This document shows, in pieces, positions 5,232-63,412 of a DNA stretch of 64,000 nucleotides. Made by a program: the position numbers and the translations under genes. The DNA is taken from the IMG/VR virus record IMGVR_UViG_3300027779_000018, positions 17,952 through 81,951 of that record; one strand, given 5' to 3'. Every line of letters begins with the position of its first letter. The stretch's first letter is position 1. A model generated the notes under the pieces. It saw only the letters and a program-made list of their open reading frames with translations, was not told the origin of the DNA and ran no database searches. The stretch comes from a virus.

Positions 5232-5590
5232 CCTACAACAATAACTACACCGAACCCAACATAGACAACGGAATAACGGTCAGTAGAAAGAATTCAGAGG
5301 TCATCGGTAATACCTTTACCCCTGATTGGAGTAAAAACACTCACCTTTGCTATGGGGGTGGAGATCACTTCCATGAGGGAACCACAAGAACAAGACGTAG
5401 TACCGTAGAACACTTCAACATCCCCCTAAACTATAAGGAACTCCAACACCTTACCACAGGGGATCATTCCACACTTCACCACCAACTCAAAGAACGTCTA
5501 GGAATAGACCTACACACGGTGTACGATATCGATAGAGTATGGATAGCTCCTCATAACACATGGGAACCAATAGGAAAGGGGTCTTATTAA
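5228..5590 (+). CDS. hypothetical protein (120 aa), GTG start
   Basis: Starts at GTG overlapping the upstream stop. His-rich middle (YGGGDHFHEGTT, HLTTGDHSTLHHQL) suggests possible metal binding, but no family is recognised. It is the last gene of the 2656-5590 block and ends tail-to-tail with the minus-strand DUF7220-like gene, sharing 4 bases with it. Confidence 0.6.
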   Translation: MTYNNNYTEPNIDNGITVSRKNSEVIGNTFTPDWSKNTHLCYGGGDHFHEGTTRTRRSTVEHFNIPLNYKELQHLTTGDHSTLHHQLKERLGIDLHTVYDIDRVWIAPHNTWEPIGKGSY

Positions 5591-5808
5591 CCCAACTGAG
5601 AGAAGTATCGTCTAATCATATAGACCCGACAATAGGCAACCACGGTCATGATTGCCGTCACCGTAGTACCAATGTAAAATGCACTGTCCCATTCGAGGAT
5701 ATTCATGAAGAGAAACAGCAGAGAAAGATTCAGAGGGTAGTTAATTAACAACCCAGTACCTACTGCTGTCATTGTTTCTTTGTGTATTTTACGAGACTTC
5801 TTAGACAT
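5587..5808 (-). CDS. DUF7220-like small membrane protein
   Basis: 73 residues starting MSKKSRK, followed by two hydrophobic helices (LLINYPLNLSLLFLFMNIL and FYIGTTVTAIMTVVAYCRVY) and a basic end (RRYF). This layout matches the DUF7220 family of phage and bacterial inner-membrane proteins of unknown function. I reject the ATG 18 nt upstream because the -10 element overlaps it; from 5808 the ATG lies only 6 nt after TATACT, so the mRNA would be leaderless or nearly so. Confidence 0.7.
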   Translation of the reverse strand: MSKKSRKIHKETMTAVGTGLLINYPLNLSLLFLFMNILEWDSAFYIGTTVTAIMTVVAYCRVYMIRRYFSQLG

Positions 5809-5814
5809 ACCTAT

Positions 5815-5843
5815 AGTATAACACACTGAGAGGCCTATGTATA
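5815..5843 (-). promoter_or_regulatory. promoter of the DUF7220-like gene
   Basis: On the minus strand: TATACA (5843-5838), 17-bp spacer, TATACT (5820-5815), then ATAGGT and the ATG. The -10 and following bases equal those of the promoter at 7144; the -35 is weaker. Confidence 0.55.
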
Positions 5844-7143: not shown

Positions 7144-7173
7144 TTGACAATGCCTCCGATAAACTGTTATACT
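7144..7173 (+). promoter_or_regulatory. sigma70-type promoter, repeated phage consensus
   Basis: TTGACA (7144-7149), 18-bp spacer, TATACT (7168-7173). The first ATG of the downstream gene begins 6 nt later. Confidence 0.8.
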
Positions 7174-7179
7174 ATAGGT

Positions 7180-7413
7180 ATGATAAAGAATCAAGAAAAT
7201 AAATTGATCGCGACCCACCTTGCCACAGGTCAGTCTGTAGAGATAGACCTCACTGACAAAGAGATGGTGTATGCAACCTGTAAGGACGTGTGCATCAACG
7301 AGTGCTGGGACTTCTTAGACAGCCTAGTGGACAACAGGACAGGGATTAAGATCATCGATGAATTGCAGATAGACTTCATCGTGGTTAACGGAATTAAAAA
7401 GGTTTTCCACTAG
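7180..7413 (+). CDS. hypothetical protein (77 aa)
   Basis: Small acidic protein, MIKNQENKLIATHLATGQ at the N-terminus, with C-x3-C-x3-C in the middle (TCKDVCINEC). If ATG 7180 is used the mRNA is almost leaderless; a TTG at codon 9 preceded by AAGAAAA is an alternative. The first bases resemble the leader of the 20414 gene (AATCAAGARGAAA), favouring the view that they once served as a ribosome-binding region. Function unknown. Confidence 0.6.
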   Translation: MIKNQENKLIATHLATGQSVEIDLTDKEMVYATCKDVCINECWDFLDSLVDNRTGIKIIDELQIDFIVVNGIKKVFH

Positions 7414-8085: not shown

Positions 8086-8357
8086 GTCACAGTGCAATGT
8101 TTAAAGCAATGAATCGAGAGAAGTCTGCATGGATTCTTAAATGGGTCGCAAGTGTATGTCTAGTGATAGGAATGAGTGTTCGTGCAAGTGGTATACCCGA
8201 ACTCGCTATATTTGATTTAACATTTTCCTTCGTGGGTATATGTGGTTGGTTGACGGTGAGTATTATATGGAATGACCGTGCATTGATATTATTAAATGCA
8301 ACTGGGTTTCTGATTTTATTGACTGGTTTAATTAAATACTTTTTCGTGGGAGTCTAA
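8082..8357 (+). CDS. small membrane protein, DUF6552-like
   Basis: 91 residues with three hydrophobic helices (KWVASVCLVIGMSVRAS, FDLTFSFVGICGWLTVSIIW, LILLNATGFLILLTGLIKYF). The layout resembles DUF6552 proteins of marine phages. I start it at 8082 because of the ATGA overlap with the upstream frame, rather than the ATG 24 nt earlier. Inner-membrane location expected; role unknown. Confidence 0.65.
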   Translation: MSHSAMFKAMNREKSAWILKWVASVCLVIGMSVRASGIPELAIFDLTFSFVGICGWLTVSIIWNDRALILLNATGFLILLTGLIKYFFVGV

Positions 8358-8360
8358 ATA
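8353..8360 (+). promoter_or_regulatory. late-type promoter box TCTAAATA
   Basis: TCTAAATA differs from the T4 late box TATAAATA at one position and lies exactly 5 nt before the ATG at 8366, as in six other genes of this window. Confidence 0.45.
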
Positions 8361-8365
8361 ATATC

Positions 8366-8644
8366 ATGATAGATTTTTTATTAAGTATACTGACCTTTCC
8401 TTTTTGGTTAGTGTCTACCTTTTTCATTTACGCTTTTGGAATTGTGTTTTACTATGGCATCTATGTGTTGTGTCGTGTGTACATCTACGAGGCACATTGG
8501 GATACCATTAAAGACAAGGTCTTTACAAGAACAGAAATGAAAACCCATAGGGAGCCCTCTCGTGTCTACACCAAGGCAGAAGATTATAAGACACCAAAGG
8601 ACTACTCACCGAAACACGATGATATAGAGGATTATATAAATTAA
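8366..8644 (+). CDS. membrane protein with acidic/Lys tail (92 aa)
   Basis: One or two N-terminal hydrophobic helices (FLLSILTFPFWLVSTFFIYA, FGIVFYYGIYVLCRVYI), then a charged Tyr/Lys/Asp-rich cytoplasmic tail. No Shine-Dalgarno; a late-type box ends 5 nt before ATG. The stop is followed by the next ATG after one base. Unrecognised. Confidence 0.6.
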   Translation: MIDFLLSILTFPFWLVSTFFIYAFGIVFYYGIYVLCRVYIYEAHWDTIKDKVFTRTEMKTHREPSRVYTKAEDYKTPKDYSPKHDDIEDYIN

Positions 8645-8858: not shown

Positions 8859-10169
8859 ATGAATGAAACAAAGAAAGACAGTGAGAAAGTCATTTCGGAT
8901 GAGACTCAGCAGAACATAAGAATCCTAGGGATTAATATTTCACATGACGCGTCTATTGCAGTCATCGATAACGGTGTCGTAACCAGTGTCTACGAAGAGG
9001 AACGCTGTCGCAGGACGAAGTACTGGGCTCCCCATGGGGATAAGGAAACACTCTACCAGTGTATCGAGCAGAAGAACCTAGAAGAGATTGATGAGGTGGT
9101 CTTCACTTCATTTGATCGCAGGCAGTTTAATGTTGTGGTCTCACCCACGATCAGTCTCGACAGAATGAAGTCTCGTGAGTTTATTAGAAAATTAGAAACA
9201 CAACAATTGTCTCGAGCTCGGTTAGAAGAGTTGGTAGAAGAATACCCCGATGATTTCTCTATTGAGAAAATCTATGAGAACGATGAAGACCAAAGAATCA
9301 TGGATGACATCGCAACCAATCAGTTAGGATTATCTTCAGAGGAATACCTCTACAATGTAGATCACCATGTCCACCATGCCTATTGTGGATTCGTTCAGTC
9401 AGAGATGGAGAATGCATTGGTCATTGTCATGGACGGTGGTGGCTGTCAGAAATATTACGACACACATCCTGCTTACCAAGAAATTGAATCCATTTATTAT
9501 GCTACCAAAGGTGGGATGGAACCCTGTTGGAGTCGATTGTCGAACAGTCGTTTCATCGGGGACTTCGATGAGTTCTTCCCCAACGAATGTCACGCAGCTG
9601 GTCTCTGTTACTTAGATGAAGAGGAACATAGGGATGGGGTTGATCTTTGTTTTACTTCTCGTCCTAGCGCTGGTATGAACTTCAGTAACATGTCTCTAGC
9701 ACTAGGGACGGATGACCAAGGTCGAGCAGCTGGAAAAGTGATGGGTATGGCATCCTACGGAAAACCTTCTCAGAATATATTCAACAAGTATAATGTCAGT
9801 CAACAATTGGAACTCGATTCCTACGACCATACGGTGGAGATCATCAAACGTGCTATTGACTATGCACCTGATTGTAGGAACATTGTTCTCAGTGGTGGGT
9901 ACTCTTTAAACTGTACCAACAACTACAAGTACTTAGAGGCCTTCCCTGATTATCAAATCTTCGTTGACCCTATTCCCCATGATGGTGGAACGGCAGTCGG
10001 AGCTGCATTGCAGATGTGGGAAAATATTAATAGTAATAATGTTTCTAATAATGTACAAAGTACATTTAATGAAACAAATGAAGAGGATAACGACACTTTA
10101 CCCGACTGGCCAGAGATAAAAGATGATGAACCACAGATCACCCCTTTAGAGTGGAGTGCAGATAAATGA
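8859..10169 (+). CDS. carbamoyltransferase, N-terminal (Kae1-like) subunit
   Basis: 436 residues matching the N-terminal domain of the NodU/CmcH/TobZ O-carbamoyltransferases. GINISHDASIAVID (24-37), the metal/substrate motif DHHVHHA (168-174) and MDGGG (191-195) are clear; VLSGGYSLNCTNN near residue 350 is the usual nucleotide-site loop. The protein ends in an acidic linker of about 50 residues. The C-terminal YrdC-like part is a separate gene whose ATG overlaps this stop by 4 nt. In the family this domain transfers a carbamoyl group to a hydroxyl; target here unknown, possibly DNA or a surface sugar. Confidence 0.88.
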   Translation: MNETKKDSEKVISDETQQNIRILGINISHDASIAVIDNGVVTSVYEEERCRRTKYWAPHGDKETLYQCIEQKNLEEIDEVVFTSFDRRQFNVVVSPTISLDRMKSREFIRKLETQQLSRARLEELVEEYPDDFSIEKIYENDEDQRIMDDIATNQLGLSSEEYLYNVDHHVHHAYCGFVQSEMENALVIVMDGGGCQKYYDTHPAYQEIESIYYATKGGMEPCWSRLSNSRFIGDFDEFFPNECHAAGLCYLDEEEHRDGVDLCFTSRPSAGMNFSNMSLALGTDDQGRAAGKVMGMASYGKPSQNIFNKYNVSQQLELDSYDHTVEIIKRAIDYAPDCRNIVLSGGYSLNCTNNYKYLEAFPDYQIFVDPIPHDGGTAVGAALQMWENINSNNVSNNVQSTFNETNEEDNDTLPDWPEIKDDEPQITPLEWSADK

Positions 10170-10786
10170 TTACAAGAATAGTAAGAGACTTAGATGACAT
10201 CGTTGATTTAATTATTGATGAGAAACAAATCGTTGCGATCTTTCAAGGTGAAGGTGAGTGGGGCCCTAGAGCGCTAGGTAACCGTTCTATTCTATTTGAC
10301 CCTAGACATAAGGAAGCTAAACAAATCGTCAACAGTGTGAAGAAGAGAGAGTCCTACAGACCTTTTGCAGGGAGTGTCATGGCAGAACATGCTCATGAGT
10401 ATTTTCACATGTTGCAATTAAAAGAATCCCCATGGATGTCCTTTGCGATTCAAGCAAAAGATATTGCCTACGAAAAAGTACCGACACTGGTACACGCAGA
10501 TGGGACTTGCAGAATTCAAACGGTCACAAGAGAACAGAATAAAAACTATTACGAATTAATTGAAGCCTTCTATGAGAAGACTGGTGTCCCGATGATTTTT
10601 AATACTTCGTTTAACTTGGGTGGTGAAGCACTGGTTGAAACAATTCAAGATGCTATTGACACTTGCAACCGTTCTGAAATTAATTACCTCTATATTCCTG
10701 AAGACCAAGACTTTGATATCCCCTTTGAACAATTGAAATATAAATCATTGGAAGAGATAAACAAAAATAAAGGGGACATGGAATAG
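10166..10786 (+). CDS. carbamoyltransferase, C-terminal (YrdC-like) subunit
   Basis: 206 residues matching the C-terminal NodU/CmcH domain, which makes carbamoyl-adenylate from carbamoyl phosphate and ATP. The family motifs GEGEWGPRALGNRSI, RESYRPFAGS and FNTSFNLGGE are intact. ATGA overlap with the N-terminal gene implies coupled, near-equal synthesis and a two-subunit enzyme. Both halves are free of internal stops, so this is a clean split at the domain boundary rather than decay. Confidence 0.88.
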   Translation: MITRIVRDLDDIVDLIIDEKQIVAIFQGEGEWGPRALGNRSILFDPRHKEAKQIVNSVKKRESYRPFAGSVMAEHAHEYFHMLQLKESPWMSFAIQAKDIAYEKVPTLVHADGTCRIQTVTREQNKNYYELIEAFYEKTGVPMIFNTSFNLGGEALVETIQDAIDTCNRSEINYLYIPEDQDFDIPFEQLKYKSLEEINKNKGDME

Positions 10787-10813: not shown

Positions 10814-10821
10814 ACTAAATA
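10814..10821 (+). promoter_or_regulatory. late-type promoter box ACTAAATA
   Basis: ACTAAATA ends exactly 5 nt before the ATG of the hesB gene at 10827; the same 8-mer and spacing occur at 18102. Confidence 0.45.
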
Positions 10822-10826
10822 GTAAG

Positions 10827-11162
10827 ATGATAGAAGTTACAGACATTGCAATTGCAAAACTCATAGAGAAGAAAGTAGACTCAGTTAGAATGGGTGTTAC
10901 TGGTGGTGGGTGTAGTGGTTACGAATACGTTTTTGTCGAAGACGAATTTAAAGACGGAGACGAAGTAATTGATTACGGTAAGTTTAAATTTCTGATAGAT
11001 AGAATGAGTCAACCCTTTTTAAGAGGGGTGACATTAGATTATATTAAAGAAGGATTGAATGAAACATTTACGTTTCAGAATCCAAATGAAGAAGCCAGTT
11101 GTGGCTGTGGAGTGAGTATTACATTTAATGAAGACATCGTCAGCGAAAGCCAAAGGGCGTAA
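10827..11162 (+). CDS. hesB: A-type Fe-S carrier, HesB/IscA family
   Basis: 111 residues with the three conserved cysteines of A-type iron-sulfur carriers: C29 in GGGCSGYEY and C92/C94 in SCGCG. Length and fold order match IscA/ErpA. In the cell it would pass Fe-S clusters to apo-proteins, perhaps the phage's own radical-SAM enzyme. hesB-like genes are a hallmark of marine T4-like phages. Its end overlaps the next gene by 35 nt. Confidence 0.93.
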   Translation: MIEVTDIAIAKLIEKKVDSVRMGVTGGGCSGYEYVFVEDEFKDGDEVIDYGKFKFLIDRMSQPFLRGVTLDYIKEGLNETFTFQNPNEEASCGCGVSITFNEDIVSESQRA

Positions 11163-11478
11163 ACTACAACAGTGGTTTGCCCAAGTAATGGTTAATACAC
11201 TTAACCTACATGAGGAAGATTTAGAATCTAGACCGATGGGGTCACAGGGTGAGGATATTATTATGGGTCGAGAGTCAAGGGAACAGTTTCCGTACTCAAT
11301 CGAATGTAAAAACCAAGAAGCTGTTAACGTATGGAAAGCTTACGAACAAGCTGAAACAAATTGTAAGGGGTACGAACCCCTAGTAGTGATTAAACGAAAC
11401 CGAAGTAAACCACTAGTGTTAGTGGATGCTGAACACTTCGTTGCACTACACAAAAGAGAAACGAATGAAATCATTTAA
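11128..11478 (+). CDS. small PD-(D/E)XK-type nuclease
   Basis: 116 residues with a nuclease-like core: RPMGSQGEDI followed by SIECKNQE (the ExK pair) and a helix WKAYEQAETN. This arrangement is seen in small phage endonucleases and Holliday-junction-resolvase-like proteins. It overlaps hesB by 35 nt and the RimK-like gene by 14 nt, so it is deep in one operon. A role in DNA repair, recombination or packaging is likely; exact activity open. Confidence 0.65.
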   Translation: MKTSSAKAKGRKLQQWFAQVMVNTLNLHEEDLESRPMGSQGEDIIMGRESREQFPYSIECKNQEAVNVWKAYEQAETNCKGYEPLVVIKRNRSKPLVLVDAEHFVALHKRETNEII

Positions 11479-12508
11479 CGAGTCAAGAATAGTCCAAGAG
11501 GCACCTGAGAAGAACTACAAGTTAGTTCTCATTTCTCATGATGATCCTAATGACACTAATGATACTGGTGTCCTGATTAGAGACACCGCTAAGAAGATGG
11601 GCATTGAAGTACACCTATGTGAATTCATGGGAGCTTACCTTACTAGGAAGGGGAAGAAGACATTCCTCAATTCATTTAAAGTCAACAAGGAAGGTGATAT
11701 AGAAACATTAGGTGGTGATAAAGGTATCACCGATGGTAAAGATCACATGCAAGAACCTATCGAACTGGATGACAACACTCTCATCATGGTCAGAGGTATC
11801 GGAACAAGTGGTATCAGTGGTAACGCATCGTGGAAGAACTTAGCATTTCAACTTGAACAAGAAGGACATTCAGTCGTTAACTCTACCCAGTGTCATTGGT
11901 ATTGTGCAGACAAAGACCTCAATCAATATATGTTTGAGAAAGAACACTTCACCACCCCCATTACTACAAGGATGACTCATTCAGAAGATGGTGTTGAAGC
12001 CATGAAACGAATTGGTGATGAGTTCCCTGTAATATTAAAAACAGGAACAGGAAGTCGTGGTATAGGTGTAGTGTACATTGAGTCTCATAAAACCCTTAGA
12101 GCAATCGCACAATTATTATATCGTGAGTCAGAGTGGACAGATATTCTTTTACAAGAGTTTGTAAAATGTAAATACGATGTTCGTGCAATTGTTTGTTGTG
12201 GTGAAGTGATCGGTGCAATGAAACGTCCAATCGTGGATGGAGATTTCAGAAGTAATGTTTCACAAGGTTCAAAAGCAGAAGCAATGGAGTTGACCGAAAA
12301 AGAAATTGCAGAATGTATCAGAGCTGCAGATTGTGTCGAAGCAAAAATATCAGGAGTGGATTTTATTCCTGCGACAGACAGAGAGAAAGGTGAACCAATA
12401 TTCATTGAAGTAAATTCAACGCCAGGCTTAAAAGGAATTGCAGAAGTCATTCCAAACATAGTGAAGGATGTCCTGAAGTGTTTTTATAATAGAGAGTTTT
12501 GGAAATAG
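11465..12508 (+). CDS. RimK-like ATP-grasp ligase
   Basis: 347-residue ATP-grasp protein resembling RimK, which adds glutamate to proteins or small molecules. Visible motifs: VILKTGTGSRGIGVVYIES (ATP lysine and Gly-rich loop), LLQEFVK (hinge), DVRAIVCCGEVIGAMKR, and the metal-binding EVNSTPGLKGI near the end. I start it at 11465 (GAGAAACG before ATG); the longer frame lacks a ribosome-binding site. RimK-like ligases occur in related marine phages; the acceptor is unknown. Confidence 0.85.
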   Translation: MKSFNESRIVQEAPEKNYKLVLISHDDPNDTNDTGVLIRDTAKKMGIEVHLCEFMGAYLTRKGKKTFLNSFKVNKEGDIETLGGDKGITDGKDHMQEPIELDDNTLIMVRGIGTSGISGNASWKNLAFQLEQEGHSVVNSTQCHWYCADKDLNQYMFEKEHFTTPITTRMTHSEDGVEAMKRIGDEFPVILKTGTGSRGIGVVYIESHKTLRAIAQLLYRESEWTDILLQEFVKCKYDVRAIVCCGEVIGAMKRPIVDGDFRSNVSQGSKAEAMELTEKEIAECIRAADCVEAKISGVDFIPATDREKGEPIFIEVNSTPGLKGIAEVIPNIVKDVLKCFYNREFWK

Positions 12509-13274: not shown

Positions 13275-14110
13275 TGATTCTAATAGATTTTACCCAAACC
13301 ATAATAGCAGGTTTGATGGCACAGCTCAAGATGAACAATGGTGAGGTGTCAGAAGATATGTTACGACATATGATATTGAACTCTGTTCGTGTTTATCAGA
13401 AACGATACTCTAATGAATATGGTGAGATCACTTTATGTACGGATGCACCCAATACATGGAGAAAAGAATTCATGCCATTGTATAAAGCAAACCGTAAGAA
13501 GACTAGAGATAAATCAGACCTAGACTGGGGTATGTTATTCGAAACACTTAATAAAGTTAAACAGGAAATCAAAGAGAACTTCCCATACCGATATATGTAT
13601 GTTGAACGTGCAGAGGCAGATGACATCATCGCCATCCTAGTTAAACATGCAAAAGAACCAGTGATGATAGTCAGTGGAGATAAAGACTTCCAACAGTTAC
13701 ACAAGTATGACTATGTGAAACAATGGAGTCCCAACCTAAATAAACTAATAGATTGTCCCAACCCTGAATTGTTTCTTAGGGAACATATTCTAACTGGGGA
13801 CAAATCAGATGGCATTCCAAATATATTATCTAATGATGATTGTTTTGCAGAAGGTATCAGACAGACACCTTTAAGAAAAGGTATAAAAGATAGTTACCTC
13901 AGAATGACCATTGAAAAAGACGATAAATACTATCGGAACTATTTAAGAAACCAAACTCTTATTGACCTAGAGTTCATTCCTCAAGATTTAGAGGATTGTA
14001 TCTTAGACGAGTTTTCAAAGACTGCACCTGTAAGAGGGAAAGTATTTGATTACCTAAGAACACATAGGTTGAATGAGTTATTAAATCATGTAGAGGACTT
14101 TACGTTATGA
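13274..14110 (+). CDS. rnh: T4 RNase H-like 5'-3' flap/exonuclease
   Basis: 278 residues of the FEN/T4 RNase H family, which removes RNA primers and flaps on the lagging strand. The acidic metal sites are readable: D5 in MILIDFTQ, E114/D116/D117 in AEADDII, D136/D138 in SGDKDFQ and D176/D179 in GDKSDGIPN. It is coupled to its neighbours on both sides by 1-4 nt overlaps. Confidence 0.92.
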   Translation: MILIDFTQTIIAGLMAQLKMNNGEVSEDMLRHMILNSVRVYQKRYSNEYGEITLCTDAPNTWRKEFMPLYKANRKKTRDKSDLDWGMLFETLNKVKQEIKENFPYRYMYVERAEADDIIAILVKHAKEPVMIVSGDKDFQQLHKYDYVKQWSPNLNKLIDCPNPELFLREHILTGDKSDGIPNILSNDDCFAEGIRQTPLRKGIKDSYLRMTIEKDDKYYRNYLRNQTLIDLEFIPQDLEDCILDEFSKTAPVRGKVFDYLRTHRLNELLNHVEDFTL

Positions 14111-14619
14111 CAGAAAAGAAAGGAAGAGGGCGTCCCAAGGGAGCTCCAAATAAACCGTTAATGGAAATTGATACAAAAAGAAATACACTTCTAAACAATG
14201 CAGATGTTGTTGAAATTTTGAGTCAAGCAAACCTAGTTGCACCTGAGAACGAAACCCATGCAGTCAATGGACTTATGGTATTCGGTAAAAAGAATGGTGC
14301 AATCAAACCAATCCTACAGTGGGTCTTCTCTTCGAAGATCAACTCAACCTTGCCTGAAGGCAAGACTCCGTACAAAAGTAATGATGCACCAGCAACAGAC
14401 TTAGCTGAAACCAGTCTAAGGTTTGAACACAGGTTATTCAAGTATTTTGTAACAGAGCAGATTCCTATGACAAAGCGTGAAGCTATGTGGATAGGTATGT
14501 TGGAAGGAATACCTACTAGGGAAGCAGAATTGATGGACTTAGTAAAAGACGGTAAGTGGCCGTTTAAAAATATCACTGGTGAGATCGCGAAGAAAGCTTT
14601 CTCTGACATTAACATTTAA
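14107..14619 (+). CDS. DUF6433-like phage protein
   Basis: 170 residues with an AT-hook-like N-terminus (KGRGRPKGAPNKP) and the C-terminal pattern of DUF6433 phage proteins: SSKINSTLPEGKTPYKSND, LFKYFV, KREAMWIGMLEGIP and ITGEIAKKAF. The family is confined to T4-like phages and has no known function; the AT-hook suggests DNA binding. ATGA overlap with rnh. Confidence 0.8.
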   Translation: MTEKKGRGRPKGAPNKPLMEIDTKRNTLLNNADVVEILSQANLVAPENETHAVNGLMVFGKKNGAIKPILQWVFSSKINSTLPEGKTPYKSNDAPATDLAETSLRFEHRLFKYFVTEQIPMTKREAMWIGMLEGIPTREAELMDLVKDGKWPFKNITGEIAKKAFSDINI

Positions 14620-17563: not shown

Positions 17564-18110
17564 TGGACTAGCAAAAGTTATCGGGGATATGATAGCCGCA
17601 ACTCCCTATGTTGGTTCTATACACATAATCAACCATGCTCGTATCGAAGATTTATTAATGTGGACTCCACCTGAGTGGAACGAGTATGATGCATTTATTA
17701 ATTGTGCTCATTTAGACTTTCAGCAATGCAATCTACTAATGTTGGCCTACGAAGCATACAAAGAAGATGATAGTAAAACAATAATCAACATCTCATCTCG
17801 TGCAAGTCAGCCTAACATATCTAAGGGATACCTCTATGCGGCTCAGAAAGCCGCTCTACTGCATTTAAATAACAACCTAGTGTACAACTCAGACAAGAGA
17901 TGTCGTATCACTACGATGAACCTAGGACTCTTAAATCACACTGACCTTCCTAGTATCTCACACAATGAGGTTGCAAGTTGGATATACAGTCACCTCACTA
18001 CATCTAAACATGTAGACATACCTGAGATCACCCTTCAGAATAGGGCAAACTACATGACCATTCAACGTGATAAAGAAACACTTAGAGAACTAGAGAGATA
18101 TACTAAATAA
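17538..18110 (+). CDS. short-chain dehydrogenase/reductase
   Basis: 190-residue Rossmann protein: MKVLITGSSGLAKVIG (NAD(P)-binding loop), INISSRAS (catalytic Ser) and Y100-x3-K104 in YLYAAQK. AAGGAG 4 nt before ATG fixes the start at 17538 rather than 48 nt upstream. It overlaps the radical-SAM gene by 26 nt. Probably oxidises or epimerises the same substrate class; exact reaction unknown. Confidence 0.82.
   Translation: MKVLITGSSGLAKVIGDMIAATPYVGSIHIINHARIEDLLMWTPPEWNEYDAFINCAHLDFQQCNLLMLAYEAYKEDDSKTIINISSRASQPNISKGYLYAAQKAALLHLNNNLVYNSDKRCRITTMNLGLLNHTDLPSISHNEVASWIYSHLTTSKHVDIPEITLQNRANYMTIQRDKETLRELERYTK
18102..18109 (+). promoter_or_regulatory. late-type promoter box ACTAAATA
   Basis: ACTAAATA ends exactly 5 nt before ATG 18115, inside the end of the SDR gene. 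Confidence 0.45.
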
Positions 18111-18114
18111 TATT

Positions 18115-18363
18115 ATGACTACAGAATATAACGACTTTGGTTTTACCGCTATGGATGCAGATGAACTTGCGTCCATTGATTCTAAGATTATCGAGAAGAC
18201 TACTACTGCAACGGAAGTAATCAACAAACTCGATGATTTCGTAAGACCCCTACTTGAGAATCTTGCAAAGGATTCAGACAAGGACTATATCTATTGGCCC
18301 AATCGAGTAGAGATCATAAACAAGAAATTAAAAGAATTAGACGAAATTCAAAAAACCCTCTAG
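18115..18363 (+). CDS. small acidic helical protein (82 aa)
   Basis: Starts MTTEYNDFGFTAMDADELAS; long amphipathic helices and a conserved-looking IYWPNRVEIINKKLKELDEI end. Similar short proteins are common in marine T4-like phages, function unknown. No Shine-Dalgarno; late-type box 5 nt before ATG. Confidence 0.65.
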   Translation: MTTEYNDFGFTAMDADELASIDSKIIEKTTTATEVINKLDDFVRPLLENLAKDSDKDYIYWPNRVEIINKKLKELDEIQKTL

Positions 18364-18528: not shown

Positions 18529-19746
18529 ATGAGAGCAACAATCAACGCTTTTAAAACAGTCGTACCGTTTCAACAACCGACATTCAATAACAACCCACAC
18601 TATCAACTAGACTTAACAATGAGTCTCGCGGAGAGTGGCTATCCAATTTATAAGACCAAAGAGTTCCTTCTTAAGGTACTAGCTGGTGCAATAAAAACAG
18701 GACAAGTTAATAAAGATTATGATATCTTAAGTAAACTTCGTGCAAGAAAGTTTAATTTAATGAAAATGATCTCTGCAGCAGCCGAGAAGGATTTACAAAC
18801 CAAAGGTTATTCTTCAGGTAACCAAGATGTAAAAATATTGCAAGAGGTTCTCGGAGAAGGTGGTACATTTTTATATAGTTCACCATGTCCTATGGTGGTA
18901 ACTAATCCAACATCCTCAAAAGATGTGTTAGCAATTGGTGACAATAGATTTGCAGCCAAAGGAAAACTTGGATGGAAGTATGATATCACTGATGTTATAG
19001 AATTGGATTTAACAAACACAGAAGATTTTGCAATCTATAAGATGATTTCGTCTAACAGTAACAACCATCCACATCAAACTTCAATGAAAACTAAAGAAGT
19101 GACTGCATTGGTCTATGAGATGGTTTGTAGGGATACTCAATTAATTGATATGTTCAATCCAAAGAAAAATACATTTGATAAAAACAAATGTTTTGATTTC
19201 ATTAAATCATACAAAGAACCTATTACCTCAACTTCACTAAAAACAGTTCTAAAAAATGTACAAATAAAATTGAGTGAAGGAAGTCAGATTCGAGGAATGT
19301 TTAAAACCATGACATCTGATGGAGAGACTTTAAAACAAGCAACTGCTCTAGGTACAGACAAGAGAGACGATATCATAACTGTAGAAAAGGGTATGATTGA
19401 TAGGTATCTATATGACAACATCGTTAAATTAGCTGGGACTTTTAATAAACTATATGTCATTATGAAAGTAAACACTTCCGATTTTAGTATATCAGTAGAT
19501 AAGTTAAATCAGAGCAGACGTGATGCCGCACATTCTCTAAAAATAATCTCGTCAGCTGCAAGTGCAATAGCTGGATTTAAAAAAGTGGGAATCAAACAAG
19601 CATACATAGACAATGTAGTAATCTTAGGTTACTGGTCACAACACTCATCAGAGTCAGCAGAACTTCTTCAAAGAGTGGATGTTAATGGTACGATTACAAG
19701 TGTGAGTCTTGATGAAGCATTGAACCTACCATCAATGGTTGTTTAA
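18529..19746 (+). CDS. hypothetical protein (405 aa)
   Basis: Large soluble protein, start MRATINAFKTVVPFQQPTFN, no family recognised. It has its own promoter, a structured leader and a strong terminator, so it is an independent, probably highly expressed unit. Mixed alpha/beta with a long Lys-rich middle. Confidence 0.75.
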   Translation: MRATINAFKTVVPFQQPTFNNNPHYQLDLTMSLAESGYPIYKTKEFLLKVLAGAIKTGQVNKDYDILSKLRARKFNLMKMISAAAEKDLQTKGYSSGNQDVKILQEVLGEGGTFLYSSPCPMVVTNPTSSKDVLAIGDNRFAAKGKLGWKYDITDVIELDLTNTEDFAIYKMISSNSNNHPHQTSMKTKEVTALVYEMVCRDTQLIDMFNPKKNTFDKNKCFDFIKSYKEPITSTSLKTVLKNVQIKLSEGSQIRGMFKTMTSDGETLKQATALGTDKRDDIITVEKGMIDRYLYDNIVKLAGTFNKLYVIMKVNTSDFSISVDKLNQSRRDAAHSLKIISSAASAIAGFKKVGIKQAYIDNVVILGYWSQHSSESAELLQRVDVNGTITSVSLDEALNLPSMVV

Positions 19747-23864: not shown

Positions 23865-24098
23865 ATGATAAGTAAAAAAGAATTCACAGAGCAGGTCGAA
23901 CAGATTCTTCTCAGATCAAACACAGACGTAATGGACGCAATCATTACAGTGTGTGATAAGAATAATATGGAACCTGAATCTGCAAAGAGATTTATATCAC
24001 AACCCCTGAAGGAGAAACTTGAAGCAGAAGCACAAGGTCTCAATATGGTTAATCGTGGTAAGTCAGGTCGTGGTAGTATAGTTGGTTTTTTCGAATAG
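23865..24098 (+). CDS. gp33: gp33-like late-transcription coactivator
   Basis: 77 residues aligning with the C-terminal two thirds of T4 gp33: FTEQVEQILLRSNTDVMDAI, CDKNNMEPESAKRFIS and LKEKLEAEAQGLNM match in order and spacing, and the hydrophobic C-terminus (VGFFE) fits the sliding-clamp-binding tail. gp33 bridges RNA polymerase and the clamp at TATAAATA promoters, which this window contains. It is shorter than T4 gp33 (112 aa). Confidence 0.82.
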   Translation: MISKKEFTEQVEQILLRSNTDVMDAIITVCDKNNMEPESAKRFISQPLKEKLEAEAQGLNMVNRGKSGRGSIVGFFE

Positions 24099-26826: not shown

Positions 26827-27069
26827 ATGCCACAAGTAACACCGAAATACAATCCTAAGACGAGACAGTCAGAATCGTTTGATGGATTATTACGGCGTTT
26901 TAAAAAGGCATGTGACAATGCAGGGATTATTCAAGAAGTCCGTGACAGGGAATATTACGAGAAACCTAATCAGGTTAAACATAAGAAACTTCAGCAACAA
27001 AAGAGACGTAAGAAACTTGAAGCAATTAAGAAATCTAAAGAGAGTGGTCGTTCTCGACATCCTTGGTGA
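26827..27069 (+). CDS. rpsU: phage ribosomal protein bS21
   Basis: 80 residues matching bS21: after a short phage-specific N-terminus, [18 protein letters not shown] and [11 protein letters not shown] are the family signature, followed by a Lys/Arg-rich helix ([20 protein letters not shown]). It would bind the host 30S subunit near the anti-Shine-Dalgarno region and may bias initiation toward phage mRNAs. Phage bS21 genes are known from marine phages including pelagiphages. Confidence 0.92.
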
Positions 27070-30639: not shown

Positions 30640-31434
30640 TTAACCACCACCACCGAATAAATTATTAATCTGTGTGGTTCTCGTATCTAGATTTGATAAA
30701 GTCTTGTTAAATTTTCCACCTTTACCAAATCGGTCTAATATTTTTCCACCCTCTAATAGTGAATCTAATATTACTCGTCCTTTATTTAGTGCAGACCGTT
30801 CAGGTGCAGCCACATATTCTGACTCCCAATTCCTAAACGCAATCGTACATGTAAATTTCATTATTTCGTCACTAGTTCCCCGATTCAACTCTTGAGGTTC
30901 AAACTTAATAGGGTATGCTTCATATAGATTAACCTTTAAGGCCTTCTTCCCATCCAGTCTATGTTGAATGATCTCAACTTTGCCAATGTAATCATCGTAC
31001 CATGACATACTTGGATTAAGTACACTACCAGTTTCATCATTTGTAGTACCTATAACATTTCCCTCTACATCTTTTTTCATAGTGGATGGTGCAGAACTGA
31101 ATACTATTTGTTGCCATGCTTCAATGATTAATCTATCTGCAAAGTGTTGGTCACATATAAAGGTAAAATCCATTGAACCACCTGAACCATCTATTGTACC
31201 AGTTGGCATTTGTCTTACTTGACCATACTCAGAAAATGATTTAACTTCAAGTTCTCTGCCTGGCAATTGACATGATTCTAATCTTACACCCATTAATTTT
31301 GATTCGGTCAACACATCATTGGAAAAACTGTTTGGTAGAAAGAAGTTTGCATCGAAACGGTTCGGCCTTGCACCCGAATCAAAATTATATTTTAGTTCGT
31401 CTATACTGGTGCCTTTTCTTGTAAAAATTGACAT
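30640..31434 (-). CDS. gp54: gp54-like baseplate/tail-tube initiator
   Basis: 264 residues with the T4 tube-fold pattern shared by gp19, gp48 and gp54: DANFFLPNSF, SCQLPGRELEVKSFSEYGQV, FTFICDQHFADRLIIEAWQQ, YDDYIGKVEI and NLYEAYPIKFEPQELN. Length is between gp19 (163) and gp54 (320); since gp48 is encoded at 32491, gp54 is the better label. Its ATG overlaps the stop of the upstream gene by 1 nt. Confidence 0.72.
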   Translation of the reverse strand: MSIFTRKGTSIDELKYNFDSGARPNRFDANFFLPNSFSNDVLTESKLMGVRLESCQLPGRELEVKSFSEYGQVRQMPTGTIDGSGGSMDFTFICDQHFADRLIIEAWQQIVFSSAPSTMKKDVEGNVIGTTNDETGSVLNPSMSWYDDYIGKVEIIQHRLDGKKALKVNLYEAYPIKFEPQELNRGTSDEIMKFTCTIAFRNWESEYVAAPERSALNKGRVILDSLLEGGKILDRFGKGGKFNKTLSNLDTRTTQINNLFGGGG

Positions 31435-32000
31435 TAAAATTGTTTCCTAGATTCGGCATACACCGTGTTTGCATTAGTTCCTTTAAAATTTGAGGTTGGT
31501 AACATTGCAGCTACATCCCAATAATCTAAAGATATTTTCATTGGTTTTCTTATGATATGACTGTAGAGATATTTCTTAATACAGGGTTTTGCAAAACTTA
31601 ATCTACTTACCTTCTGTATGTAATGATATTCTGCAAACACACCCTCATCCTTATTCTTTATCTTATATAATTCTTCTAACAACAAAGTTCTATGTCTTGG
31701 AGCAATGTAGTGTAAGTTCAACCCATAGAAACTATCTATAGGACTAATGTCAAATGGAATTACTAGTGGAAATCTATCCCAGTATGGTAATTTCTTTTTT
31801 GTTTTTGCATCATAGAACATCATGTACATGTTACCTTCTATGAGTTGAGAGGTCTTAGTACCCTCTTGATATAGGCTATCCCTTATCATGGGTTTATAGA
31901 TATTTCTAATTTGTGTTCTAAACCATTCTAAAGATTCTTGAGAATGCACCCTGATTTCAGCGGGTTTTAGTTTTGTTAGGTTTTCGAATAAATCTGCCAT
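31434..32000 (-). CDS. phage structural / DNA-end-associated protein (188 aa)
   Basis: Starts MADLFENLTKLKPAEIRVHS; contains MYMMFYDAKTKKKLPYWDRF and FYGLNLHYIAPRHR, a pattern I associate with a conserved T4-like morphogenesis protein next to gp4 in marine phages. I cannot assign a T4 number with confidence (gp2 or a hub component are candidates). No Shine-Dalgarno; a TATAAATA box lies 5 nt upstream. Confidence 0.6.
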   Translation of the reverse strand: MADLFENLTKLKPAEIRVHSQESLEWFRTQIRNIYKPMIRDSLYQEGTKTSQLIEGNMYMMFYDAKTKKKLPYWDRFPLVIPFDISPIDSFYGLNLHYIAPRHRTLLLEELYKIKNKDEGVFAEYHYIQKVSRLSFAKPCIKKYLYSHIIRKPMKISLDYWDVAAMLPTSNFKGTNANTVYAESRKQF

Positions 32001-32005
32001 ACTAC

Positions 32006-32013
32006 TATTTATA
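32006..32013 (-). promoter_or_regulatory. T4-type late promoter TATAAATA
   Basis: Minus-strand TATAAATA (32013-32006), exactly 5 nt (GTAGT) before ATG at 32000. Confidence 0.75.
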
Positions 32014-38787: not shown

Positions 38788-38795
38788 TATAAATA
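38788..38795 (+). promoter_or_regulatory. T4-type late promoter TATAAATA
   Basis: TATAAATA exactly 5 nt (GATAT) before the gp25 ATG at 38801; no Shine-Dalgarno. Confidence 0.75.
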
Positions 38796-38800
38796 GATAT

Positions 38801-39223
38801 ATGGCAATAGATATAACCAACGAAGCAAAAACCGTAGCTACCTCTAAAGGCACATACAGGGATTTAGATTTACTTTTTCGTGCGCACCCTCAGACTGGAG
38901 ATGTAGTGGTACGAACCGATGCCGAGGCAGTTAAGAGATCAGTTAGAAATATCATATTAACCAATCATTATGAACGACCATTTAAGCCAGGCTTTGGTGG
39001 TTCTATCAGAGACCTTCTATTTGAGTTGAATACGAGCAGACAGTTAAAGAAGGTACAGAGAAGACTTAAAGATATGTTGGAAGCATTTGAACCTAGAGTT
39101 AAGGATGTAGTGGTGAGTATCTTAACTCAAGATAGTAATGAAGTTAATTTAAACATACAGTATTCGATTATAAATATAGCACGCAACCAAGCGTTAGACC
39201 TCACAGTAACAAGGGCAAGATAA
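38801..39223 (+). CDS. gp25: gp25 baseplate wedge (lysozyme-like)
   Basis: 140 residues of the GPW/gp25 family: LLFRAHPQTGDVVVRTDAEA, VKRSVRNIILTNHYERPFKP and GFGGSIRDLLFEL are the family blocks. Structural wedge component next to the sheath. Confidence 0.92.
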   Translation: MAIDITNEAKTVATSKGTYRDLDLLFRAHPQTGDVVVRTDAEAVKRSVRNIILTNHYERPFKPGFGGSIRDLLFELNTSRQLKKVQRRLKDMLEAFEPRVKDVVVSILTQDSNEVNLNIQYSIINIARNQALDLTVTRAR

Positions 39224-45355: not shown

Positions 45356-45363
45356 TATAAATA
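45356..45363 (+). promoter_or_regulatory. T4-type late promoter TATAAATA
   Basis: TATAAATA 18 nt before the gp8 ATG, with AGGAG between; a second box CATAAATA lies at 45344-45351 over the gp7 stop. Confidence 0.75.
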
Positions 45364-45381
45364 TCTAGGAGATAGAAACAA

Positions 45382-46848
45382 ATGGCAGCAATAATCACAG
45401 AAAAGTTTAGAGTGCATAACGCTAGACAATTCAAAGAAGACTTTGGAGAAAGTGCTTCTTCAACATACATATTCATAGGTCGATCAAATTCGTGGCCTAT
45501 AGATACATCCCCCCCAACACCAGTAAACGGAACTTCAGAGGAAGTTGATGCGTTTTCTGATATGATTGCACTTAAGAAAGTAGCAACTGCTGATGTGTCT
45601 CATGGATTAACAAGATACGACTGGACTACAGGAGTTACATACGATGAGTACGCACACGATTACTCAGCAAGTAATACTTCTCCTTCAGGTGCAACAAGTT
45701 TGTTTGCATCAAAGTTCTATGTTATGACAGACGAGTATCATGTTTACAAATGTCTCAGAACTGGAAAAGATTCAAATGGTGCTAATGTTGCTTCAACAGT
45801 TAAACCAACAGGAACTTCCGCAACGACATTAGTATCAACCTCAGATACAGGTGCAACTCGTTATGGTTACGTTTGGAAATATATGTATACTGTTACTGCC
45901 TCAGATACTATTAAATTCGTAACTAACGATTTCATCCCAGTTAAAACATTGGGAGCTCAAACAGAAATCAATGGAGACCTAGGTGCTTACGGTTCAGCTG
46001 GAACAGATGACGGTTCATCTCAGTATGATGTCGAAGTAGCAGCAGTAGATGGTGGAGTTCACCATGGAGTAGTTACTGCTGGTGGTTCAGGTTACACCAA
46101 TGGTGATGGTTCATATGAATCAGTTCCTATCGTAGGAGACGGTTCAAATGGAGTATGTACAGTCCATATCGCTGGTGGTGCAGTAACACATATTACTGTA
46201 ACAAATCCCGGCACTGGGTACAAACGAGCTCAAGTTCTTATTGCAACAACCACATCGGGTCTTTCGGGAATCGGTTCAGGAACAGGTGCAGTAGTCAATT
46301 GTATTATTTCACCATCATACGGCCATGGTGCTGATATGGTTTCAGAATTAGGTGGAAACTACATCATCGTTAACTCTAGATTAGAGTTTGCTGAAGGTTC
46401 AGGTGACTTCCCAACTGATAATGACTTCCGTAGAATTGGACTGATCCAAGACCCATTCACAGTTGGCACTACTGCAGTTGCAACAGCAGCTTCAATGGCA
46501 GCTTATAGTCAAATGACCTTATCATCAGTAACAGGAATTGCAGTAGACAGTATTATTGCAAATGCAAGTGCAGATGGTTCAGGTGTAGCAGTATCAAGAG
46601 TTATTTCAATAACAGGAACAGTAGTTTCACATATCCCAATAGCAAATAGTGCTGGTGGTTTTGCTAACTTCGCAGCATCGGCTGCGGTTTATGTTGGTTC
46701 TTCTCAGAAAGCAACAGTGTCATCCGTGAACGGTGCATTCCCTGAAGTACAGAGATACTCAGGTCAGGTAATGTACATTGAGAATCGTGGTGCTGTTACA
46801 AGAGCGGCAGACCAAATCGAAGATATTAAATTAATTATTGAAATGTAA
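45382..46848 (+). CDS. gp8: gp8 baseplate wedge
   Basis: 488 residues (T4 gp8: 334). N-terminus AAIITEKFRVHNARQFKEDF, STYIFIGRSNSWP and the C-terminal part RIGLIQDPF match gp8. The extra length is Gly/Thr-rich beta sequence in the middle. Confidence 0.87.
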   Translation: MAAIITEKFRVHNARQFKEDFGESASSTYIFIGRSNSWPIDTSPPTPVNGTSEEVDAFSDMIALKKVATADVSHGLTRYDWTTGVTYDEYAHDYSASNTSPSGATSLFASKFYVMTDEYHVYKCLRTGKDSNGANVASTVKPTGTSATTLVSTSDTGATRYGYVWKYMYTVTASDTIKFVTNDFIPVKTLGAQTEINGDLGAYGSAGTDDGSSQYDVEVAAVDGGVHHGVVTAGGSGYTNGDGSYESVPIVGDGSNGVCTVHIAGGAVTHITVTNPGTGYKRAQVLIATTTSGLSGIGSGTGAVVNCIISPSYGHGADMVSELGGNYIIVNSRLEFAEGSGDFPTDNDFRRIGLIQDPFTVGTTAVATAASMAAYSQMTLSSVTGIAVDSIIANASADGSGVAVSRVISITGTVVSHIPIANSAGGFANFAASAAVYVGSSQKATVSSVNGAFPEVQRYSGQVMYIENRGAVTRAADQIEDIKLIIEM

Positions 46849-58746: not shown

Positions 58747-58754
58747 TATAAATA
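58747..58754 (+). promoter_or_regulatory. T4-type late promoter TATAAATA
   Basis: TATAAATA exactly 5 nt (GTATT) before ATG 58760; same box, spacing and spacer as at 62566. Confidence 0.78.
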
Positions 58755-58759
58755 GTATT

Positions 58760-59092
58760 ATGGCAATCATTGCAAACATATTCATAGATCAAGGTGCGGA
58801 CTTCAGTATTACTGTAGATGTATCTGATGCAGACGGAAATGTATTGAGTCTCACTGGTTATACTGCAGCGGCACAAATAAGAAAAACTTATAGTTCTTCT
58901 AGTATATCTAAGACCTTTTCGAATTCAATTAATGCAGCTGCGGGTCAGGTAACTTTAACTCTAACGGATACACAAACAGCTGCTATTGAAGCAGGACGTT
59001 ATGTATATGACTTAAACGTAACGAGTGGTGGTGGAACAACTACAAGAGTAGTGGAAGGTCAGGTAATTGTAACGCCTGGCGTAACGAGGTAA
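58760..59092 (+). CDS. Ig-like / BppU-like tail protein (110 aa)
   Basis: MAIIANIFIDQGADFSITVD, then GYTAAAQIRKTYSSSSI and LTLTDTQTAAIEAGRYVYDL form a beta-sandwich typical of phage BppU-N or Ig-like baseplate appendages, frequent in marine phages. No Shine-Dalgarno; late promoter 5 nt upstream. Confidence 0.7.
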   Translation: MAIIANIFIDQGADFSITVDVSDADGNVLSLTGYTAAAQIRKTYSSSSISKTFSNSINAAAGQVTLTLTDTQTAAIEAGRYVYDLNVTSGGGTTTRVVEGQVIVTPGVTR

Positions 59093-62518: not shown

Positions 62519-62547
62519 AAAGGGGACTTTCGAGTCCCCTTTTTTTT
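62519..62547 (+). terminator. strong intrinsic terminator
   Basis: AAAGGGGACT (62519-62528), tetraloop TTCG, AGTCCCCTTT (62533-62542) with eight T residues. Ends the fibre transcript before the 62566 late promoter. Confidence 0.93.
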
Positions 62548-62565: not shown

Positions 62566-62573
62566 TATAAATA
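62566..62573 (+). promoter_or_regulatory. T4-type late promoter TATAAATA
   Basis: TATAAATA exactly 5 nt (GTATT) before ATG 62579, just after the terminator. Confidence 0.78.
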
Positions 62574-62578
62574 GTATT

Positions 62579-63412
62579 ATGGCAACTCAATCAAAATTCT
62601 ATGCCGATCTAGGCATCAAATCTCTAACTCATACTGAGATTGATGGCAATCTTCAAGTTAGTGGAAACCTAACTGTAACTGGCTCACAAACGATTATTGA
62701 TTCAACAACAAGTTCAGTTGTTGATTCTATGATGGAACTAGCTAGTGGGAACACTTCTGCAGATTTAATTGACATTGGGTTCTATGGAAACTATAATGAT
62801 GGTCTGTCAGGTGAAGGTGACGTATCAGAATACACAGGTTTATTCAGGGACGCAAGTGACTCAACATGGAAGTTATTTGATGGTCTAGAAACAGAACCAA
62901 CTACAACAGTAGATTTATCGGGTGGAAACTATGCACTTGCAGATTTAACGGTTGGTGATCTAACTGCAACTACCTTGACTGCAACCAATGGACTTACAGG
63001 TTCATCTATAACTTACCCAACCAGTGATGGAACAAGTGGACAGTTTATTAAAACGAATGGTAGTGGTGGGTTATCTTTTGATGATGCAGGGGGACTTACA
63101 GAGGGAAATCTAACAACTACTGCAACCACACAAACAACTTTAGACTCATGGTCAACTTCGACATACAGAAGTTCTAAATACCAAATTCAAGCAAGTGATT
63201 CGACTTCGGGTGAATACCACGTTATCGAAATCCAAACAATACATAATGGAACTACAGCGTACCATGTTCAATATGGAGAGATGCACACAGGGTCTTCTCC
63301 ACTTGCAACATTCACTGTAGATATAAATATAGGAACATTAAGGCTCAGGGTTACTCCAGCCTCTACAAATTCTACTGTATTTAAATTTAAAAAGATCGAA
63401 CTCGTAGTTTAG
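62579..63412 (+). CDS. tail fibre / adhesin protein (277 aa)
   Basis: Starts MATQSKFYADLGIKSLTHTE, with NLTVTGSQTIIDSTTSSVVD and a beta shaft; the last ~80 residues (KYQIQASDSTSGEYHVIEIQ; LRLRVTPASTNSTVFKFKKI) repeat the C-terminal domain of the two preceding genes. No Shine-Dalgarno; late promoter 5 nt before the ATG. From 63413 to 63514 no gene; an ACTAAATA lies near 63464. Confidence 0.75.
   Translation: MATQSKFYADLGIKSLTHTEIDGNLQVSGNLTVTGSQTIIDSTTSSVVDSMMELASGNTSADLIDIGFYGNYNDGLSGEGDVSEYTGLFRDASDSTWKLFDGLETEPTTTVDLSGGNYALADLTVGDLTATTLTATNGLTGSSITYPTSDGTSGQFIKTNGSGGLSFDDAGGLTEGNLTTTATTQTTLDSWSTSTYRSSKYQIQASDSTSGEYHVIEIQTIHNGTTAYHVQYGEMHTGSSPLATFTVDINIGTLRLRVTPASTNSTVFKFKKIELVV

Follow-up and report, generated by a model that had tools for sequence, protein, structure and literature searches.

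A subset of the late genes of the marine T4-like myophage described here is very probably expressed from T4-type late promoters, served by gp55 and gp33, whose +1 falls on the start codon, an arrangement that would yield leaderless mRNAs. The window that we analyzed comprises 64,000 nt of a contig of 81,951 bp, itself a partial genome.

Late promoter boxes in the phage contig

Genes 2, 4, 5, 6, 8, 25, 32, 53 and 59 were identified in the contig, together with the gene for the late coactivator gp33. By gene 6, its nearest cultured relatives are the Melnitz methylophages and the Pelagibacter phages Mosig and HTVC008M, each at less than 41% identity, the closest isolate match being to Melnitz-like methylophages at 40%. 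A gp55 sigma factor was not found in this partial contig, and gp55 homologues are present in six contigs of the same clade, in HTVC008M and in Mosig; acting with the gp33 coactivator, such a sigma factor would drive the late promoters. One gp55 candidate, at 14107-14619, was rejected as a DUF6433 gene. Host prediction through the IscA-like gene yielded matches that were all weak and scattered. This Fe-S gene (10827-11162), with its predicted leaderless late promoter, adjoins a Nol-like carbamoyltransferase that is split over two ORFs (8859-10786).

The first-pass annotation had reported a late promoter box ending exactly 5 nt before the ATG of seven genes, and had judged so constant a distance unlikely to be due to chance. 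All seven TAAATA-N5-ATG sites are present (ATGs at 8366, 10827, 18115, 32000 on the minus strand, 38801, 58760 and 62579; Table 1), the last four with the perfect octamer TATAAATA, as many as had been claimed, and the first three reading TC- or AC-TAAATA. Two further sites, at G000:C1:896 and 3944, lie outside the window and bring the contig total to nine. The sites are of T4 type in that the perfect TATAAATA octamer stands before genes 2 and 25 and the tail-fibre assembly gene.

Table 1. Promoter sites, terminator and selected genes, in window coordinates.
Feature	Position	Strand	Gene or context
Sigma70-type -10, TATACT-N6-ATG	5806-5820	-	DUF7220 gene 5587-5808 (Pfam PF23858)
TTGACA-N18-TATACT-N6-ATG	7144-7182	+	77-aa gene 7180-7413
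TCTAAATA-ATATC-ATG	8353-8368	+	92-aa gene 8366-8644; box overlaps stop of upstream ORF
ACTAAATA-GTAAG-ATG	10814-10829	+	IscA/HesB-like Fe-S assembly protein, 10827-11162
ACTAAATA-ATATT-ATG	18102-18117	+	82-aa gene 18115-18363; box overlaps TAA stop of upstream gene
gp33, T4-type late-transcription coactivator	23865-24098	+	PF16805, E 4.9e-19
Ribosomal protein bS21 homologue, phage-encoded	26827-27069	+	PF01165
TATAAATA-GTAGT-ATG	31998-32013	-	Gene 2, DNA end protector, 31434-32000
TATAAATA-GATAT-ATG	38788-38803	+	Gene 25, baseplate wedge (Pfam GPW_gp25), 38801-39223
Leadered late promoter (contrast): TATAAATA, 18-nt gap with TAGGAG	45356-45384	+	ATG of gene 8, 45382-46848
TATAAATA-GTATT-ATG	58747-58762	+	LtfC-like tail-fibre assembly protein, 58760-59092
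Intrinsic terminator, 10-bp stem and T run	62519-62542	+	Just upstream of the 62566 box
TATAAATA (62566-62573)-GTATT-ATG	62566-62581	+	277-aa gene 62579-63412, without family match

Dinucleotide shuffles of the window gave a mean of 1.52 motifs and a maximum of 5 (100 shuffles), compared with the 7 observed, and a second set of 300 shuffles gave a mean of 1.37 per window. When the ATG also had to begin an ORF of 60 aa or more, the shuffled mean fell to 0.03 and the maximum to 1 (300 shuffles), again versus 7 observed. Across the contig, ORF-opening ATGs that follow TAAATA at gaps of 0 to 10 nt number 1, 0, 0, 0, 0, 9, 0, 1, 0, 0 and 0. The exact spacing is enriched relative to shuffles, to neighboring gaps and to the reversed pattern, in agreement with the earlier judgement on chance. 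The genome-wide check of the spacing that the first-pass annotation had proposed, run here, found enrichment in both the contig and independent relatives.

Conservation of the spacing in related phages

Eighty relatives were chosen by their gene 6 protein, with the motif playing no part in the selection; a scan of viral contigs for TATAAATAGTATTATGG, in which the motif itself is the selection criterion, was left out of the evidence. In these relatives 84 ATGs follow TATAAATA at a gap of 5, none do so at gaps of 0-4 and a single one at 6-14, while a separate set is found at about 15-40. Because gene 25 dominates this 80-locus sample, we used counts of protein families over whole contigs for the main statistic, families being defined by single linkage of BLASTP hits among mechanically called ORFs, with several of the contigs partial. 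The gap-5 spike occurs in each of 12 long related contigs of the clade, which together hold 24 families at this gap versus 2.8 expected (Poisson probability about 6e-15), and a group formed by HTVC008M, Mosig and two relatives holds 18 versus 3.2. Over 11 related contigs, the N5 pattern outnumbers the reversed N5 pattern by 80 to 6. The spacers at gap 5 comprise 53 distinct sequences overall, indicating that it is the distance that is conserved, and not one copied sequence.

The predicted leaderless families of the two groups include genes 2 and 25 and those for the portal, tail-fibre assembly, an IscA-like protein and peptide deformylase, to which HTVC008M adds gene 4, a putative tape measure gene, csgF and a cyclase gene; most of the remaining gap-5 families are without a named function. 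In HTVC008M, each of the nine sites located from 5 to 50 kb matches a start annotated by the depositors. The spike is absent from T4, Syn9, S-PM2, P-HM1 and P-SSM4, in which the boxes mostly lie 19-30 nt from the ATG; possible gap-5 cases number one or two each in P-SSM4, P-HM1 and S-PM2, and three in Melnitz. Around gene 6 in P-SSM4-like contigs (L431-L510), no TATAAATA was found ahead of ORFs, and gene 25 of these contigs is mostly without a TAAATA box. The gap-5 arrangement is specific to this marine phage group.

Translation signals

None of the seven starts has a Shine-Dalgarno sequence at a working distance, as the first-pass annotation had noted; at sites 8366 and 58760 a G-rich stretch lies upstream of the box and would fall outside the mRNA. 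Shine-Dalgarno 4-mers precede gap-5 starts at frequencies of 0.21 and 0.11 in the two groups, compared with 0.14 and 0.15 for random ATGs, and 0.55 and 0.93 for TATAAATA genes with leaders in these groups. In the same phages, further late genes retain a leader with a Shine-Dalgarno sequence. The start codon at gap 5 is ATG in 110 of 115 cases overall, and in the clade 77 ATG stand against a single TTG. A comparison set at gaps of 15-35, with chance codons included, contains 122 ATG and 61 GTG or TTG. The missing Shine-Dalgarno sequences and the near-exclusive use of ATG are both consistent with leaderless initiation. In leaderless mRNAs, a 5'-terminal AUG is recognized directly, without Shine-Dalgarno pairing, and from this general knowledge we infer that translation of these late mRNAs would start in the same way, in hosts competent to do so. 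E. coli translates leaderless mRNAs poorly (PMC4633059).

Gene 25 provides a clean natural comparison of a predicted leaderless form, a minimal leader and, in T4, a structured leader, and it bears on the joint evolution of promoters and ribosome signals. Its gap is 5 in 79 of the 80 gene-6-chosen relatives and 6 in the other, and the gap-5 relatives keep the TATAAATA box while showing 13 different 5-mer spacers. In HTVC008M-like phages the gap is 5 or 6 (6 in 49 of 76), and those with gap 6 often have C at the +1 predicted from T4. Melnitz-like gene 25 (L351-L430) has the same octamer, then about 5 nt, AGGAG, and an ATG at 16-17 nt, which places the first base of AGGAG near the predicted +1 and would leave a minimal leader. 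Taken together, the positions of the gap-5 AUG and of the Melnitz-like AGGAG indicate that the first translation signal begins at or beside the predicted +1. T4 gene 25 has structure between the Shine-Dalgarno sequence and the AUG (PMC3014915).

The phage-encoded bS21 homologue occurs in this contig, six other clade contigs, HTVC008M, Mosig, G011 and Melnitz, and was not found in the complete genomes of T4, Syn9, S-PM2, P-SSM4 and P-HM1, all of which are without the gap-5 spike. The correlation is imperfect, since gap-5 genes are few in Melnitz despite its bS21. According to one proposal, phage bS21 biases ribosomes toward phage mRNAs late in infection (PMC9723584). The window also encodes a RimK-like ATP-grasp ligase (11426-12508; Pfam PF08443, PHROG name S6 glutaminyl transferase), which may be another gene for ribosome modification. 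It is conceivable, if unlikely, that a leaderless late regulon is paired with phage bS21, and here with the RimK-like ligase, to retune host ribosomes to mRNAs that lack Shine-Dalgarno sequences. If this were true, late takeover would act on the promoter as well as on the ribosome.

Predicted transcription start and alternative explanations

The T4 late octamer TATAAATA occupies positions -13 to -6 (PMC1524935, PMC2988020), the published geometry with which the box position given in the first-pass annotation agrees, and +1 would then be the A of the ATG at a gap of 5. The start offset at these sites is a prediction carried over from T4. With this offset, RNA polymerase would begin at the A of the ATG and produce leaderless mRNAs for some virion and other late genes, and the leaderlessness of these late mRNAs is strongly predicted from the sequence, in support of the interpretation given in the first-pass annotation.

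Two kinds of arrangement make a start elsewhere hard to accommodate. The terminator at 62519-62542 should stop read-through from upstream about 24 nt before the 62566 box. Genes 2 and 4 of HTVC008M (W01, 18916-18943) are divergent, with 26 bp between their ATGs and both late boxes inside this interval, which leaves no room for leaders, and G011 similarly has divergent genes with two late boxes in the 26 bp between ATGs (135961-135988).

Several sites lie within operons, and long-leader read-through transcripts, translated by coupling, may therefore also exist. There is a slight chance that the late promoters are real but that protein comes mainly from such transcripts, the spacing being a product of genome compaction only. 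The genomes are indeed compact, at 8366 and 18115 the box shares bases with the preceding stop codon, and several sites lie in same-strand runs; compaction alone, however, would also fill gaps 0-4 and 6-12, both of which are at background while gap 5 spikes, and coupling is impossible for the divergent HTVC008M genes 2 and 4 and is disfavored for the 62579 gene, which comes after a terminator. Even less probable is a transcription start one or more bases away from the A of the ATG, giving a leader of 1-3 nt. The mixture of gaps 5 and 6 in the HTVC008M-like group, with its frequent C at the predicted +1 of gene 25, is what a one-base start shift or a 1-nt leader would produce, but gene 25 in the window's own clade favors gap 5 over any other by 79 to 1, and bacterial RNA polymerase usually starts at A. 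That the ATGs are not true starts, or that the motif is a chance product of AT-rich DNA, is scarcely credible, because although the genome is AT-rich and the seven genes include small ones that belong to no family, the enrichment over shuffled and reversed-pattern controls already contradicts it, annotated starts agree, and the N-termini of gene 25 and the IscA-like gene are conserved.

The first-pass annotation had also drawn a parallel with a sigma70 -10 box placed 6 nt before the DUF7220-like gene. TATACT-N6-ATG is present there, and the N6 spacing is enriched clade-wide; in the window alone, TATAAT-N6-ATG with one mismatch allowed is not enriched (34 versus 35 expected). Nine families of the clade, among them gp55 in G001, have TATAAT 6-7 nt before the ATG together with a good -35 box, versus about one per gap, and this signal needs the good -35 boxes. 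The case that early genes are likewise leaderless through sigma70 boxes is suggestive only, and weaker than that for the late genes. Two other observations concern sigma70 promoters: gp55 of G001 (reverse strand, ATG at 9623) has TATAAT-N6-ATG, so that the late sigma factor itself may have a leaderless early mRNA, and a perfect 12/12 promoter match lies at window 62769-62797, within the 62579 gene.

Relation to known systems

Translation through Shine-Dalgarno sequences is the textbook picture for T4-like phages. If late genes are leaderless in the phages studied here, late protein synthesis would rest on a ribosome-entry route that T4 apparently does not use, and the hosts are predicted to translate leaderless mRNA well. 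Start calling that depends on Shine-Dalgarno sequences will fail in such genomes. It seems that a large group of marine phages, some of whose isolates infect SAR11, has kept the T4 late promoter but shifted many late genes onto leaderless mRNAs; a search of open-access papers turned up no account of such late mRNAs in a T4-like phage.

The T4 late promoters themselves (gp55/gp33/gp45; PMC2988020, PMC1524935) share with these sites the TATAAATA box, the gp33 and gp55 homologues and the service of baseplate and other virion late genes, but in T4 the boxes lie at least 13 nt before the ATG, most often at 28 for TAAATA, a Shine-Dalgarno sequence is usually present, and no TATAAATA-N5-ATG opens an ORF of 50 aa or more. 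The T4-like cyanophages S-PM2 and Syn9 (NATAAATA; PMC2984593) are related phages, most in Kyanoviridae, and use the same box, but have predicted leaders of about 14-25 nt and no gap-5 spike. Melnitz-like methylophages (PMC9004378) have the same box before gene 25, but with a minimal leader that opens with a Shine-Dalgarno sequence. What is seen here is a clade-specific fusion of T4-type late promoters to start codons that is predicted to give leaderless late mRNAs, which resemble those known from mycobacteria and other bacteria (PMC4633059) in a start codon predicted at +1, the absence of a Shine-Dalgarno sequence and the near-exclusive use of ATG, and differ from them in being linked to a phage sigma factor and late virion genes.
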